A DNA stretch of 64,000 nucleotides, taken from positions 124,001 through 188,000 of the forward strand of contig JAQSWM010000009.1 in the NCBI GenBank assembly GCA_029266635.1, given 5' to 3'. Position 1 is the first letter of the stretch, and each line of letters starts with the position of its first letter. The notes beneath the pieces were generated by a model. It searched no databases. It worked only from the letters and a program-made list of their open reading frames with translations, and was not told the origin of the DNA. Origin of the DNA: Sphingobacteriaceae bacterium (GTDB lineage: Bacteria; Bacteroidota; Bacteroidia; Sphingobacteriales; Sphingobacteriaceae). Both the position numbers and the translations under genes were made by a program. Positions 22,072 through 28,591 of the stretch are shown one piece after another.

Positions 22072-22848
22072 TCACCACGAGAGCTTCTCCCCTTTCAAAA
22101 AACCGCCGATTCCTCGTTTGAAATCTTCAGTTCTTCGGGCATTTGCATTGGCATGAACCGCAGTGTTTAATGCCTGTTGAAGCGGCTGATTTTCTATGTC
22201 TATTAACAGTTGCTTTGTTAATCTTATGGAGCCAGCCGAGGTGCCTTGGCACAGCTCTTCAGCATATACTTTTACTTTTTCTGCTATCTCAGATTTATCT
22301 GCAACGAAGTTAATAAGCCCGTAGCTGCCTGCCGTTTGCGCATTAATCAGGTTCCCGCTCAGCAGTAACTCCTTTGCTCTGCCCTCTCCTATTTTCCGCA
22401 CCAGAAACGCTGCAACCAACGCCGGGATAAACCCGATCTTCACTTCAGTATAGCCAAACTTTGCTTCGGGAACAGCAAACACAAAGTCGCAAACCGTAGC
22501 GAGCCCGCAGCCGCCCGCAATGGCATGTCCTTCCACCTGCGCTATGGTAATCTTAGAGTTGTTGTAAATGCTTGTAAAAAGCTCTTTGAGCCGTTCCGAG
22601 TCGGCAATATTTTCTTCGTGGGAATTATTTTGAAGCTGCTGAAGATAAGCCAGATCGGCGCCGGCGCTAAAAATACCACCTTCAGCCTTCAGCACGATAA
22701 CTTTAACTGCGTCATCATCCTCCGCTTGCTTATATCCACGGGTCAATTCAGTTATCAATTCGGGATTTAAGGCATTCCGCTTTTCAGGCCTGTTCAGCGT
22801 GATCCACGCAACCCGGTTTTCAACTTTATAAAGTACAAGATCGTCCAT
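22072..22848 (-). CDS. Enoyl-CoA hydratase/isomerase family protein
   Basis: 258 residues from the ATG at 22848 (MDDLVLYKVE); an in-frame ATG at 22869 would overlap comEC. Crotonase-fold marks: FSAGADLAYL (oxyanion hole), GHAIAGGCGLATVCDFVFA, and PEAKFGYTEVKIGF in the active-site region. The usual second catalytic Glu is replaced in this last segment by G-Y-T-E-V, so the precise reaction is open (hydration, isomerisation or hydrolysis of an acyl-CoA). It follows comEC by four bases on the same strand. Confidence 0.88.
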   Translation of the reverse strand: MDDLVLYKVENRVAWITLNRPEKRNALNPELITELTRGYKQAEDDDAVKVIVLKAEGGIFSAGADLAYLQQLQNNSHEENIADSERLKELFTSIYNNSKITIAQVEGHAIAGGCGLATVCDFVFAVPEAKFGYTEVKIGFIPALVAAFLVRKIGEGRAKELLLSGNLINAQTAGSYGLINFVADKSEIAEKVKVYAEELCQGTSAGSIRLTKQLLIDIENQPLQQALNTAVHANANARRTEDFKRGIGGFLKGEKLSW

Positions 22849-22852
22849 GTTA

Positions 22853-24958
22853 TTATTCAAGGTTTGCAATATACGCGGCGTTTTTCTTTAGCACATACAG
22901 TTTACATCCCAGAACAGCCGCTTCCTGTTGCCATTGATGTATTTTATAATCCGGGTTTGTGCCGTCCACAAAGGCAATGTTAAAATGCAGCCAACTGACG
23001 AGTTCTTTCAGCTTCAGCTTCGGATTTCTCCTGAGGAGCACAGCGTCTACAAATATCGGTTCAGAAAATTGTTTGTAGTTGAACGTGCTGTCACACATCA
23101 GCATTTTCCACTTTCTGAATTGCAGGAAGCTTCCATCGGCGAACATGCTTCCAGACGCAAAAGGCTTTCCGGGCGAAAAGGTTTGAACATTTTCGAACCC
23201 GTTCGATTCAAGGCACGGGCGGACCGAAAAAGCAAATGCATTGTCGCGGGGCTGGAGATCAGTTAAAACAGAAGCCGTTGCTCCATCCAAAAACCCGATC
23301 GCAGTATTTTTTCGGAGGCTGAAAAACACGATTTGCTTCTGCTGCAACTGACCGGTTCTTTTTAGTGATGTGCTGACAACGAGGATTAGTAAAATCGCCG
23401 CAGAGGCATAAAGAAGCCTTTTGTTGTTGTACAAAATGCCAAAAGCTATCAGGAAGAGGAAAACGTAGATGAGCAGGTAAAACCAGGTACTGATCCAAAT
23501 TCCGTGCAAATTGGCGTAGGGTAGATTTTCAATATAAAACAAGCCTTTGTTGGTGAAGATTATCGTTTTTTCGAGCAACCAACCGAGCGCCTCCTGCAAA
23601 GCATCGATTGGAAAAATGATAAATGCCAATCCCGCATACATGATGAGCGTTACAGGCAACAGAATGAAAAGGTTGCTTATAATGAAGTACAGGGGGAACT
23701 GGTGGAAGTAAAACATGCTGATGGGAAACGTGGCTGCCTGTGCGGAAAAAGACAGGCTCACATAGCTCCAAAGTTTATCTCCTGCCCGGTTTTTGATGTA
23801 GATCGCATGATAAATTTTCGGATAGAAATAGATGAGCCCAAGCACAGCCAGGTACGACAGCTGAAAACCCACGTCTACCAGGAAATACGGATTGTAGAAC
23901 AGCAACAGCACCGCCGATGCGGCAACAAGATTGTAGCCATTTGATCTTCGGTTGATCGCTTTTCCAAAAACGACAATGGTAAGCATTAGCGCCGCCCGGC
24001 ACACCGATGGAGAAAAGCCAGTTAAAATCGCATAAAACCAAATGAGAAAAATCATAAGCACCGCCCGAATCATTCGCAAAGCATTGCTTCTATTCATGAA
24101 TTTCAGAAAAAACATTAACACGGTGAATACAATCATCACATGCATTCCCGAAACAGAAAGCACATGCATTGTTCCGGTTTTTGAATAGGCATCCAGCACC
24201 TCTCTGCTCAAATCTGCACGATAACCTAAAATTAGTGTGGAAGCCACCGCAGCGGCATCTTTGTCGTGAATGTAACAGTTGAATTTGGCGACAAGCTTTT
24301 GCCGCAGCTGATATGAAAAACTAATGATCGGGTTGCCTGCATTACGTCTGATCAGTTGAATCTGGTCCTGCCGGATAAACGCCTGAAAATAGACGGCGTG
24401 GTTAGCCAGGAAGTTCTTGAAATCAAATTCGGCAGGATTATATGGAGGTTCTATTTCGTTATATTCAGGCGGAATCATCAGCACATCGCCATACTTGAAA
24501 TCTACAGCCTCGCTGGTATCAGCTTTCAGGGCGATGAGCAGCTTGCCGCTGGTGCGATAAAAATTCTTTCCACGAAAGCCCTGCACCACATCCGCTTCGA
24601 AGCGCAGAATATCGCCTGTAAGCTTTGGCTCAGAGACAATCTTCACGGCTAAAGCCTGATATTCTTTTCCGGCGAAGTTTAGCTTGTCAAACTTCTGGCT
24701 TTTATGAACTGTGGCAGCATAGCCGAGGAAAAACACTAAGCATTGGAACAACAATCCAGGCAGCCATCTGCGGTTATAAACTTTTAAATAATTGTATAGC
24801 AGCAATAAGATAGAAAGCCCTGCAAAGCAAGCAACTGCGATTATCTCTGCCATGCTGAATGCCAGAGGCGACGCATAGAACAAAGCGAGTGCAATACCGC
24901 ACAAAAGCGGGATTAATATCCGGACAAATGGGATTTCGCCTTTAATGATCTCGTTCAT
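22853..24958 (-). CDS. ComEC/Rec2-family DNA-uptake channel
   Basis: 701 residues. Two or three N-terminal helices precede a soluble DUF4131 region (about 100-200), then comes the competence domain with the signature LSVSGMHVMIVF and GFSPSVCRAALML, within some ten membrane helices. The ~170-residue C-terminal part lacks the HxHxDH metallo-beta-lactamase motif of ComEC from Firmicutes and seems a degenerate remnant. It forms the inner-membrane pore for single-stranded DNA entry in naturally competent bacteria. Its start overlaps by one base the end of a helix-hairpin-helix outer-membrane protein gene. Confidence 0.9.
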   Translation of the reverse strand: MNEIIKGEIPFVRILIPLLCGIALALFYASPLAFSMAEIIAVACFAGLSILLLLYNYLKVYNRRWLPGLLFQCLVFFLGYAATVHKSQKFDKLNFAGKEYQALAVKIVSEPKLTGDILRFEADVVQGFRGKNFYRTSGKLLIALKADTSEAVDFKYGDVLMIPPEYNEIEPPYNPAEFDFKNFLANHAVYFQAFIRQDQIQLIRRNAGNPIISFSYQLRQKLVAKFNCYIHDKDAAAVASTLILGYRADLSREVLDAYSKTGTMHVLSVSGMHVMIVFTVLMFFLKFMNRSNALRMIRAVLMIFLIWFYAILTGFSPSVCRAALMLTIVVFGKAINRRSNGYNLVAASAVLLLFYNPYFLVDVGFQLSYLAVLGLIYFYPKIYHAIYIKNRAGDKLWSYVSLSFSAQAATFPISMFYFHQFPLYFIISNLFILLPVTLIMYAGLAFIIFPIDALQEALGWLLEKTIIFTNKGLFYIENLPYANLHGIWISTWFYLLIYVFLFLIAFGILYNNKRLLYASAAILLILVVSTSLKRTGQLQQKQIVFFSLRKNTAIGFLDGATASVLTDLQPRDNAFAFSVRPCLESNGFENVQTFSPGKPFASGSMFADGSFLQFRKWKMLMCDSTFNYKQFSEPIFVDAVLLRRNPKLKLKELVSWLHFNIAFVDGTNPDYKIHQWQQEAAVLGCKLYVLKKNAAYIANLE

Positions 24959-27015
24959 CAGAACTGGTAACGAAGCTGAATTTTAAAGTCCGATCGGACG
25001 CTGCCGTCAATCAGGTCAAGCCCGGAGCCGATGGTGTTTCTGTTGGTGTATTTGGTAACTGCATACCGCAGCCAAACATCCAGCCCACGCTTCAAAGTAT
25101 AGCGGCCATTTACGTAATATCGGAAGCCCTGATCCTGAAACCCAGGAATGGAATAGCTAAAAAGCACATCATTCTCGTATGCGTAGATCCGTGAGCTGAA
25201 TGATGGCGTGTTGAAATAAGCCAGCCGCATATTGCCCGAGAACTTTGATACAGGCGGATTGTAAATTAAGTCCTGATAGACGAGTAAGCCAAACTCGTTA
25301 GTTTCTGTTTTTTGATAATTAGAGACTTCGCCGCGAGTGCGAACCTGATAACTGTCATTTAATTTATAACTCAGCTCCGCACGGTAGTTGGCTTTTTCTA
25401 CATCTTCGAGGTAGTTGATCGTGTTATTGAGATCATCATTTTCCTGCTTATTCTTGAACTTGTAGCGAAGCGTTGCTTTCAGCTTCTTCTTGTACGAATA
25501 AGTTAGCTGCGAAAAGAATTCATATCCTTTTGAAGGAGCATCCACTCCGAACTTCAGCCAGGGGAATCTGAAAAAGTCAGCATAAGAGCTGATCTCGATC
25601 TGTGAAGTTGGATTTAGAATCAGCCCCGAGTAAAAGCCCTTTTCATTTACCGCATTGGTAGATTCGGCTATCGCCTGATTGAAAAAAGATTGGTAGTCAT
25701 TCTGATAATTTCGTTGAAGCAGCACCAGTGATGCCTTGGGCGATAAACTCGCGATAGCTCCGTTCAAATAGGCAAATCCACCATCGAGGCTGTGAGCGCC
25801 TTCACCGAAAAAGTAAAGATTCTTCCAGTTATAATCGTAGTAGACGCCAGTATTGGTCAGGCTTTTTCCTGCAAACTCATATTGGTTATAGGGAAGATTT
25901 CCGGGCTCAAAAGGGTGCCCGAAGTTCGTTTGATAAGCTATAGCACCTACGTTGAAGCGCTTTTCGGAATATTGAACCGCCATCCCATAAACCATTTGCG
26001 ACAATGAGCCTTTCTTGCTCACCTCGGATGCGGTGCGATGGAAGCCGGTTTCGCTCACGGAACTAACTTCTGTTTCATCAGTAATCAAAGCCGGATTGGT
26101 GTAAGAGGCATCCAAATCACGGTAGGATACAAACGGTGTTACATTAAACTTCTGCAGGTTAATAGTCGCAGCAAGCCCACGTAAAAACAGAGATTCGTTA
26201 GTGGATGAATATGGGCGCAGTCCGATGTTTTGCTTCGGCACCGTGGAAATGGCGGCTCCCTTCCCAAAACTCAATCCCGACCAGAGCGTTAGCCCCTGCC
26301 CAAATTGAAGAGCATAATCTCCGACTGCTATTTTGCTGATCTTCCCAACATTCCTGAAGAAAACGTTGCCCGAATAAAAATCGAAGCCGTAGCGCTGCCC
26401 TCCTGAAAAGAAAGCCTCTCCTGCATCCTTGTCCATCGTAAGCGATGCCGAAATATTTTGTCCGTAAGTGTACCGATATCGCAATAACAGCCGCTCCGGC
26501 GAGCCGAGGTAGTGAGATTTATCAGGATCATCGGGCGTATTAAAGCCCTGCTGATTTTCAATAAGCCGCCCGTACCTCAACATAAGGTCATTATGCCCCT
26601 TAGCCGCAAAATCTTTCAGGTTAGCATCTGCCAGGCTGTTTGAAGCAGAGATAGTGATGAAAGGGAGCAGCCGTTTTACCACCTCGGGATTAAAGCCGTC
26701 TATTGACTGAAGTTCAACCAACTCCAGCAGCGGACCGTTTTCGCTGATGTGCAGCAATAAGTTGTTGATCTGAGCTGGCGTTAAGAATACCAGTTCTTTT
26801 AATTGCGTGGCAGTAGCTTTATTAATATTGATTGGATTTCTGAGATAGTAGTTGAGCCGTTCCGCCAGTTCCGTATAATCGAAATACTCTCCGGCATCTT
26901 CCGCTACGGATTCAAGAATCTGTTCTATTACCTGATCTGTTTCCGTTTGTGCCTGAACATATCGCCCGCACAAAACCAGCATCCCGAACAAAAGAAACAG
27001 CCTTTTAAAACTCAT
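24958..27015 (-). CDS. Helix-hairpin-helix protein with C-terminal outer-membrane beta-barrel
   Basis: 685 residues. A signal peptide (GRYVQAQT) is followed by two or three helix-hairpin-helix units around residues 40-140: NPININKATATQLKEL..LTPAQI and ELVELQSIDGF..EVVKRLL, the same non-specific DNA-binding fold as ComEA. From about residue 150 to the end the sequence alternates polar and aromatic residues in beta hairpins, and it ends with ...LRYQF, the aromatic end of an outer-membrane barrel. The stop overlaps the start of comEC (TGATG-type junction). A role as outer-membrane DNA receptor or pore for ComEC is my inference. Confidence 0.8.
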   Translation of the reverse strand: MSFKRLFLLFGMLVLCGRYVQAQTETDQVIEQILESVAEDAGEYFDYTELAERLNYYLRNPININKATATQLKELVFLTPAQINNLLLHISENGPLLELVELQSIDGFNPEVVKRLLPFITISASNSLADANLKDFAAKGHNDLMLRYGRLIENQQGFNTPDDPDKSHYLGSPERLLLRYRYTYGQNISASLTMDKDAGEAFFSGGQRYGFDFYSGNVFFRNVGKISKIAVGDYALQFGQGLTLWSGLSFGKGAAISTVPKQNIGLRPYSSTNESLFLRGLAATINLQKFNVTPFVSYRDLDASYTNPALITDETEVSSVSETGFHRTASEVSKKGSLSQMVYGMAVQYSEKRFNVGAIAYQTNFGHPFEPGNLPYNQYEFAGKSLTNTGVYYDYNWKNLYFFGEGAHSLDGGFAYLNGAIASLSPKASLVLLQRNYQNDYQSFFNQAIAESTNAVNEKGFYSGLILNPTSQIEISSYADFFRFPWLKFGVDAPSKGYEFFSQLTYSYKKKLKATLRYKFKNKQENDDLNNTINYLEDVEKANYRAELSYKLNDSYQVRTRGEVSNYQKTETNEFGLLVYQDLIYNPPVSKFSGNMRLAYFNTPSFSSRIYAYENDVLFSYSIPGFQDQGFRYYVNGRYTLKRGLDVWLRYAVTKYTNRNTIGSGLDLIDGSVRSDFKIQLRYQF

Positions 27016-27811
27016 AACTCAAAGCTATTTGTGGTGAAATGCCGAGATCGGGATGAGTAGCAACAGCAGCATCAATCCGGAAATTATTGTACAGCAAACC
27101 AAAGCCCGCATATTGCCTGAACGGGTTGGCCGACACTCCTCCACGGAAGGCAAGCCAGTCAATTACCTGATATTCCAGGCCTGACCTGAAATCCGCTTTC
27201 AACTCAAGTTCCTTTACGAGTCCACTGTTTAGCAAAAGCTTGTTTGAAACCCGGTACGATGCGCCAACCTCATAAATTGAGGGGATGACCGTGCTTAGCT
27301 GATTGCTGTATTTGCTGCTGGACGGATTTGCCAGATGGGCGCCCAGCAAGAGGTTTTCGGAAAGGAAATATTGTGCGCCGGCTTCAAAAGAATAGGCTTT
27401 CGCATCGCCATATTGCGGAATTTTCACTTGGTGATAATTGAAAGCTAAGGCTGCGAAAAGCTTCCCGCCAAAGTTTTTAGCGTAACTGAACGAGGCTTTC
27501 TGTTCGTTATATGCTGAAAAGCCGTAGCTCTCAAAACTAAGGCCAAGAGCATTCCCCTGCAAAGGATAAACGAGGACCGCAGATTTTGTGCTTAGATCAG
27601 GGTTTAGATACTGGCTTTGATATGCTGCGGAAAGCGCCGGCCGTTTAACTGCAGCTATCCCTGCCTGGTTGCTCTGCATGCTCCATTTATCCTGCAGCGC
27701 CACGCCCGTCATCCCAAGCGCTGTGGCACGAGGCCCGGGATTGGTTTGAGCGGAAGCCCAAACCGGCAGCCACAAAAGCGAGGCTGCCGCGATAAGCTTG
27801 TTAGTTTTCAG
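27005..27811 (-). CDS. Outer-membrane barrel protein (PorV/PorQ or FadL-like), CTG start
   Basis: The frame from 27811 codes for LKTNKLIAAASLLWLPVWASAQT, a textbook signal peptide, but its first codon is CTG; the codon-to-stop stretch upstream (in-frame TAG) has no ATG, GTG or TTG. A TTG at 27775 would cut the signal peptide to 11 residues. The mature protein (~245 residues) begins TALGMTGVALQDKWSMQSNQAG, as in PorV/PorQ and FadL-type proteins, and ends YEF. It overlaps the HhH-barrel gene by 11 bases and heads the same transcript. Confidence 0.7.
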   Translation of the reverse strand: MKTNKLIAAASLLWLPVWASAQTNPGPRATALGMTGVALQDKWSMQSNQAGIAAVKRPALSAAYQSQYLNPDLSTKSAVLVYPLQGNALGLSFESYGFSAYNEQKASFSYAKNFGGKLFAALAFNYHQVKIPQYGDAKAYSFEAGAQYFLSENLLLGAHLANPSSSKYSNQLSTVIPSIYEVGASYRVSNKLLLNSGLVKELELKADFRSGLEYQVIDWLAFRGGVSANPFRQYAGFGLLYNNFRIDAAVATHPDLGISPQIALSYEF

Positions 27812-27925: not shown

Positions 27926-28591
27926 ATGAAAAAATTAGTATTGAGTGCAGCCATTGCATTGATTGCCACGGGCGCATTCGCTCAAAACAAGATTAAAGAA
28001 GGGACGATTGTTTACTCGGCAGAGTACACTTTGCCTGCGGGCATGGAAGCGATGGCAAGCCAGCTTCCTAAAGAGCTCACTGTTTATTTCAAAGGCGATT
28101 CTGCTGTGAGCGTACAAAAAATGGGCATGGCAAACATCAACATGATTACTAACAAAAAAACAGATTACATGCGTTTGCTACTTGATATCCCGGTTGCAGG
28201 TAAAAAGTATTCTGTAAAATTTACCCCTGCAGATCAGGAAATGATGAGCGATAAATTCCCGGAATGGGAAGCAACAGCAGGTACTGAAACTAAAACAATT
28301 GGTGCTTACAAAGTGCAGAAGTACACGCTGAAAGATAAAAAATCAGGAAAAGAATTTGAGGGCTGGTTTACAAAAGATATTGATGTTCCTGTAAATTCGT
28401 TTACGATGTTGTTTGACCCGTCATACGGAGTTCCTGTTGAGTTTAGCTCAATTCAGAACGGCGTTACTTCAAAACTCACCGTAAAAGAATTGAAAGAAGG
28501 GCCTGTTCCAGCAAATTCATTTACTGCGGGCAATGATTTCGAAGAAATTACCGCAGAGCAGTTGCAGGCAATGCAAGGCGGCCGCCGTTAA
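27926..28591 (+). CDS. Exported GLPGLI/DUF4412-like protein
   Basis: 221 residues with a signal peptide (ATGAFAQ). The pattern KEGTIVYSAEY, a long beta-rich body with IGAYKVQKYTLKDKKSGKEFEGWFTKDIDVP and a pro-rich end resembles the GLPGLI and DUF4412 families, abundant periplasmic proteins of unknown job in Bacteroidota. It may resemble lipoprotein carriers in fold (inference). It is likely monocistronic. Confidence 0.75.
   Translation: MKKLVLSAAIALIATGAFAQNKIKEGTIVYSAEYTLPAGMEAMASQLPKELTVYFKGDSAVSVQKMGMANINMITNKKTDYMRLLLDIPVAGKKYSVKFTPADQEMMSDKFPEWEATAGTETKTIGAYKVQKYTLKDKKSGKEFEGWFTKDIDVPVNSFTMLFDPSYGVPVEFSSIQNGVTSKLTVKELKEGPVPANSFTAGNDFEEITAEQLQAMQGGRR

Follow-up and report, generated by a model that had tools for sequence, protein, structure and literature searches.

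Organization of the Locus

The window analysed here is a stretch of 64,000 nucleotides from a Sphingobacteriaceae genome (G000), the nearest named relatives of which are Pedobacter and its allies. On its minus strand, analysis of the open reading frames (ORFs) confirms an operon that had been proposed in the first-pass annotation, in which a PorV/FadL-like gene, the gene of a 685-residue protein combining a helix-hairpin-helix (HhH) domain with a barrel (referred to below by the working name HHB), and comEC overlap end to end (Table 1). The overlap between the PorV-like gene and HHB amounts to 11 nt, and that between HHB and comEC to 1 nt. The next gene after comEC, running in the same direction, encodes an enoyl-CoA hydratase/isomerase, and it is so placed in only a minority of the family loci. 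On the other side of the operon, the divergent neighbour (27926–28591) encodes a GLPGLI-like secreted protein with a score of 25 bits, which is under the cut-off; such a gene lies upstream in about one-third of the named family loci. Matches to sigma-70-type promoters are no more frequent than expected by chance (8 compared with 8.2). The PorV-like ORF has no ATG, GTG, or TTG at the expected start, the first such codon being the TTG at 27775, and a CTG at 27811 would give the protein the usual signal peptide beginning with MK.

Table 1. Genes and domains of the operon and the gene that follows it, in window coordinates.
Feature	Position	Strand	Length	Remarks
PorV/FadL-like outer-membrane barrel (14 strands, predicted)	27005..27811	-	268 aa	likely CTG start at 27811
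HHB	24958..27015	-	685 aa	signal peptide, HhH domain, and predicted ~24-strand barrel
HhH domain of HHB	26653..26835	-	aa 61–121	hairpin glycines lost
Barrel domain of HHB	24958..26595	-	aa 141–685	based on the AlphaFold2 model; stop codon included
ComEC	22853..24958	-	701 aa	DUF4131 and Competence domains; no Lactamase_B match
Enoyl-CoA hydratase/isomerase	22072..22848	-		ORF 22072–22869, probable ATG at 22848; ECH_1, E 1.2e-53

Structure of the Encoded Proteins

ComEC matches the Pfam family Competence (PF03772) with 203 bits (cut-off 23, E 8e-60), as well as DUF4131 (E 5e-25), and scores above the cut-off of TIGR00360. Its sequence gives no Pfam match to Lactamase_B, so that a nuclease domain that would degrade the non-imported strand is not recognisable; this domain is present in only about half of ComEC/Rec2-type proteins (PMC6299819).

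The second barrel that had been noticed upstream of HHB, and overlapping it, is borne out by an AlphaFold2 model with the 14-strand fold of the FadL/PorV type (pLDDT 90.9), for which Foldseek returns FadL and PorV of F. johnsoniae (8gl6_F, TMq 0.79). The sequence profile of this partner protein also matches PorV (6h3i_F, E 2.5e-7), and its score against the NCBIfam family PorV_fam (NF033709), 43 bits, stays under the cut-off of 90 and places it outside that family.

HHB starts with a signal peptide, MSFKRLFLLFGMLVLCGRYVQAQ, and ends with a phenylalanine. The family HHH_3 of Pfam is matched above its cut-off at residues 61–121 (E 4.7e-7), so that the signal peptide and the HhH region described earlier both stand, with the "two or three HhH units" being one domain of two HhH motifs. 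HHH_3 is the only family scoring above cut-off in Pfam and NCBIfam, the barrel having no family in either, and a literature search returned no publication describing the HHB barrel family. The AlphaFold2 model of HHB, computed from an alignment of 32 homologues (A1), has a pLDDT of 84.6 and a pTM of 0.83, with helices within residues 26–119 and 24 long strands within residues 141–684. Both Foldseek and VIA-align group this model with large outer-membrane barrels. MtrB is the first match in Foldseek, and VIA-align gives Z-scores of 14–16 to the barrels of AlgE, FimD, and PapC. The matches that span the whole barrel are those to the 24-strand ushers FimD and PapC (Z ~15, 360–378 residues aligned), and the match to AlgE (Z 16) extends over part of the chain. 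HHB thus combines the signal peptide, predicted transmembrane barrel, and C-terminal aromatic residue of an outer-membrane β-barrel protein, from which we infer its location in the outer membrane, and the model predicts a large outer-membrane barrel preceded by an N-terminal HhH domain. The barrel had been expected to comprise 14–18 strands; a confident barrel ending in an aromatic residue is indeed predicted, but with about 24 strands.

The HhH Domain

The residues of the hairpins and the charge of the N-terminal domain (residues 24–140) were surveyed in 179 non-redundant HHBs. In hairpin 1, the first glycine position (77) is mostly occupied by Phe or Leu, with Gly in five of the 179 proteins, and the second glycine position (79) by Ser, Asn, or Thr, with Gly in none (0/179). 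The second glycine position of hairpin 2 (109) is Asp in 133 of the 179 and Gly in two. The mean net charge of residues 24–140 in these proteins is −11, compared with +7 to +15 for the soluble part of the ComEA-like controls, and the ComEA-like proteins of related genomes all have GIG in repeat 2. Neither the G-h-G hairpins nor the basic DNA-binding domain of the ComEA type is found in HHB, and its score against the comEA family TIGR01259 is 17 bits, under the cut-off of 152.

The HhH domain matches the ComEA structure 8dss with an E-value of 0.0086 as a single sequence and of 1.9e-6 by profile, and the profile also matches another ComEA structure, 8dfk; judged by these sequence matches, the HhH domain of HHB is homologous to ComEA. 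It also aligns with the third, GIG-less repeat of the ComEA-like triple-HhH protein of Bacteroidota, and the absence of GIG on both sides of this alignment suggests that the two may represent a common protein-docking module. The first-pass annotation had assigned the capture of DNA to the HhH domain, and this was not borne out: direct capture appears unlikely, because both hairpins have lost the glycines of G-h-G and acidity is a feature of the domain across the protein family. The barrel part of HHB is net positive (mean charge +17), which would leave the passage of DNA through it possible.

Occurrence of HHB in Bacteroidia

Among 356 Bacteroidia genomes, HHB is matched in 317 at E 1e-3 and strongly in about 284 (~80%), with the 33 matches weaker than ~1e-25 (hand count), which are probably HhH-only, taken as absent. 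The PorV-like gene is directly upstream of HHB in most lineages and has been lost in several. ComEC scores above the cut-off in 348 of the 356 genomes and SprA in 347, and the ComEA-like triple-HhH protein is matched in 350 at E 1e-3. ComEC is found in 279 of the 284 genomes with HHB and in 69 of the 72 without it, a co-occurrence that is uninformative because ComEC is nearly universal. ComEC is kept in lineages without HHB, among them the Flavobacteriaceae (group f53, so assigned because G110 and 7jil, which we take to be the F. johnsoniae ribosome structure, have identical ribosomal protein S3 sequences over 221 residues).

HHB is not confined to genomes containing the SprA core of the type IX secretion system (T9SS). 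It is present in six of the nine SprA-negative genomes, including the single-contig G015, so that T9SS is not required for HHB, and a dependence of HHB on this system was rejected. HHB and the ComEA-like protein do not trade off against each other either, since most genomes have both and the HHB-less families have the ComEA-like protein. The ComEA-like triple-HhH protein, present in nearly all other Bacteroidia, gives no clear match in the genome of the window (best E 4.5e-7); this absence may be a gap in the 95.8% complete assembly.

Linkage of HHB to comEC

The family set consists of 49 Sphingobacteriaceae genomes, that of the window included, and 38 of them have a full HHB (hand count). comEC follows HHB within 100 nt and on the same strand in 36 of these 38, the exceptions being G027 and G044, and the order of PorV-like gene, HHB, and comEC is not due to chance, since it recurs to this extent. 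Of the 42 named loci of the family, 41 reach far enough to show the gene after HHB, and in 39 this gene is comEC, with a junction that mostly measures from −12 to +9 nt. In the same loci the enoyl-CoA hydratase gene and the upstream neighbours are variable, and 11 loci lack the PorV-like gene. Three further genomes of one genus have strongly diverged HHBs, and the operon is intact in the two loci that were read (L179 and L180), where the diverged HHB still lies between the PorV-like gene and comEC. The genomes of this genus (G010 and G048 for these loci) measure 1.8–2.0 Mb, and their HHBs are shorter, with frames of 500–615 residues. In another genus, which has neither SprA nor the PorV-like protein (L190 and L191, from G015 and G037), HHB is directly before comEC. 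Group g14, presumably Mucilaginibacter, has comEC with neither HHB nor a PorV-like gene beside it. A search of papers returned no report of natural transformation in Sphingobacteriaceae.

On a tree of 173 HHBs, in which long branches make the deep placements unsure, the link to comEC requires three changes, compared with 48 for shuffled labels. This fits one gain and two losses, that is, approximately one origin of the link.

Outside the family, HHB and comEC are adjacent in none of 28 genomes of other families having both genes, in none of 60 loci from 38 other families, and in none of 26 further loci, three sets that share some genomes and families. The sole non-family case is a MAG titled only "Bacteroidetes bacterium" (L093). 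A pairing of the two genes across Bacteroidota, as envisaged at the outset, thus stands for Sphingobacteriaceae but not for the other families sampled. In 18 of the 60 non-family loci, purE is directly upstream of the PorV-like/HHB pair, often with purK before it and hpt–adk diverging; loci in which the pair lies behind purE include L031, L032, L036, L042, L044, L136, L147, and L256. This neighbourhood may represent an old gene order or a link to purines.

Proposed Function

We propose, with a probability of roughly 0.4, that HHB serves the ComEC-dependent import of DNA in Sphingobacteriaceae as a conduit through the outer membrane. HHB would be the main subunit of a conduit that dates far back in the class Bacteroidia, that usually shares its locus with the gene of a small partner barrel of the PorV/FadL type, and that would have been coupled to comEC in the ancestor of Sphingobacteriaceae. 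Its N-terminal, HhH-derived domain would be positioned on the periplasmic side of the ~24-strand barrel, where it would have no grip on DNA and would probably act as a plug or as a site at which periplasmic partners, for example a ComEA-type protein, could dock. In this family, HHB would most likely provide DNA with a passage through the outer membrane for uptake by ComEC. This proposal is favoured by the predicted 24-strand fold with its usher-like neighbours, by the tight junction with comEC that persists in the family while flanking genes change and that is retained even by strongly diverged HHBs, by the few changes that the link needs on the tree, by the homology of the HhH domain to ComEA, and by the positive charge of the barrel; for P. 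gingivalis, moreover, no route of DNA through the outer membrane is known (PMC11532111). Several findings count against such a conduit: HHB occurs in about 284 of the 356 Bacteroidia genomes but is adjacent to comEC in one family and one MAG, its presence does not track that of ComEC, the Mucilaginibacter-like genomes keep comEC without the PorV-like gene and HHB, the HhH domain is acidic and without its hairpin glycines, and natural transformation in the family is absent from the papers searched. In addition, the screen in R. anatipestifer (PMC8459023) and the deletions in P. gingivalis (PMC11532111) implicate a smaller HhH protein of the ComEA type and, in R. anatipestifer, a different outer-membrane protein.

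Quite possibly, HHB and its PorV-like partner are instead a general transporter or exporter, found across Bacteroidia, for a cargo other than DNA; their operon with comEC would have a single origin and would have been kept by inertia or shared expression. A distribution throughout the class that is independent of ComEC, neighbours that vary elsewhere and are most often purK–purE, the single origin of the comEC link, and the degenerate, acidic HhH domain would all agree with an unrelated cargo. However, inertia explains poorly a coupling that outlasts both the turnover of the flanks and the loss of the PorV-like gene across many genera, and the relationship of the N-terminal domain to ComEA also counts against this alternative.

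A wider form of the DNA conduit, in which HHB would be the import pore of much of Bacteroidia in place of the PilQ secretin and pilus, the route used by other competent Gram-negatives, is doubtful. Under this reading, another system would replace HHB in Flavobacteriaceae, and the tie to comEC would be visible only in Sphingobacteriaceae. That the HHB/PorV-like pair is a component of type IX secretion is very improbable; the PorV/FadL fold of the partner and its weak sequence link to PorV of F. johnsoniae point in that direction, but HHB is found in most of the SprA-less genomes, is missing from Flavobacteriaceae, which do have SprA, and persists in several lineages that have lost the PorV-like gene. 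Little credence can be given to a Bacteroidota-wide route in which the HhH domain captures DNA directly and hands it to ComEC, since the comEC operon of one family and the HhH homology, which would suit it, are offset by the loss of G-h-G from both hairpins, the negative charge of the N-terminal domain, and the absence of any link to comEC in the sampled genomes and loci of other families.

For the crossing of the outer membrane by DNA in Bacteroidota, the conduit reading makes HHB a concrete candidate. Even with a non-DNA cargo, a barrel that is carried by ~80% of Bacteroidia genomes and whose family has no Pfam or NCBIfam entry has a function worth finding.

Comparison with Known Systems

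The ushers FimD and PapC resemble HHB in having a single-chain barrel of 24 strands (Z ~15), but the identity is ~8% and HHB has an HhH domain at its N terminus; the common fold shows no common function. SprA of T9SS is, like HHB, a large barrel with a PorV-like barrel partner. It is a 36-strand barrel, with frames of ~2,400 residues as opposed to the 685 residues and ~24 strands of HHB, which is kept without SprA; a PDB sequence search with HHB gave no match to SprA. ComEA (TIGR01259/HHH_3) is in the same Pfam family as the HhH domain of HHB, which differs from it in the absence of GIG hairpins, in its acidic character, and in the presence of an additional barrel of ~545 residues.

According to the R. 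anatipestifer study (PMC8459023), transformation in this species requires ComEC, DprA, ComF, RecA, a triple-HhH protein, a DUF1343 protein, and an outer-membrane/surface pair. The P. gingivalis study (PMC11532111) describes a requirement for ComEC and ComEA, with the ComEA domain spanning 94–165, and considers it unclear how DNA passes the outer membrane. HHB is not named in the parts of either report that were consulted, and in these two species, the Bacteroidota whose transformation has been studied genetically, the required HhH protein is a smaller one of the ComEA type. The outer-membrane/surface proteins RA0C_RS04915 and RS04920 of R. anatipestifer are comparable to HHB in the outer-membrane step of DNA uptake proposed for them; RS04915, unlike HHB, is described as a β-barrel with a carboxypeptidase-regulatory domain and without HhH (PMC8459023). 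The triple-HhH protein of the RA0C_RS02645 type, reported there as essential in R. anatipestifer (PMC8459023), and with which the ComEA-like proteins are equated here by the description in that paper and not by sequence, resembles HHB in that its third, GIG-less repeat aligns with the HhH domain of HHB. It differs from HHB in being a basic protein of ~300 residues that is likely anchored in the membrane by its N-terminal end, keeps the GIG of repeat 2, has no barrel, and is near-universal in the class.
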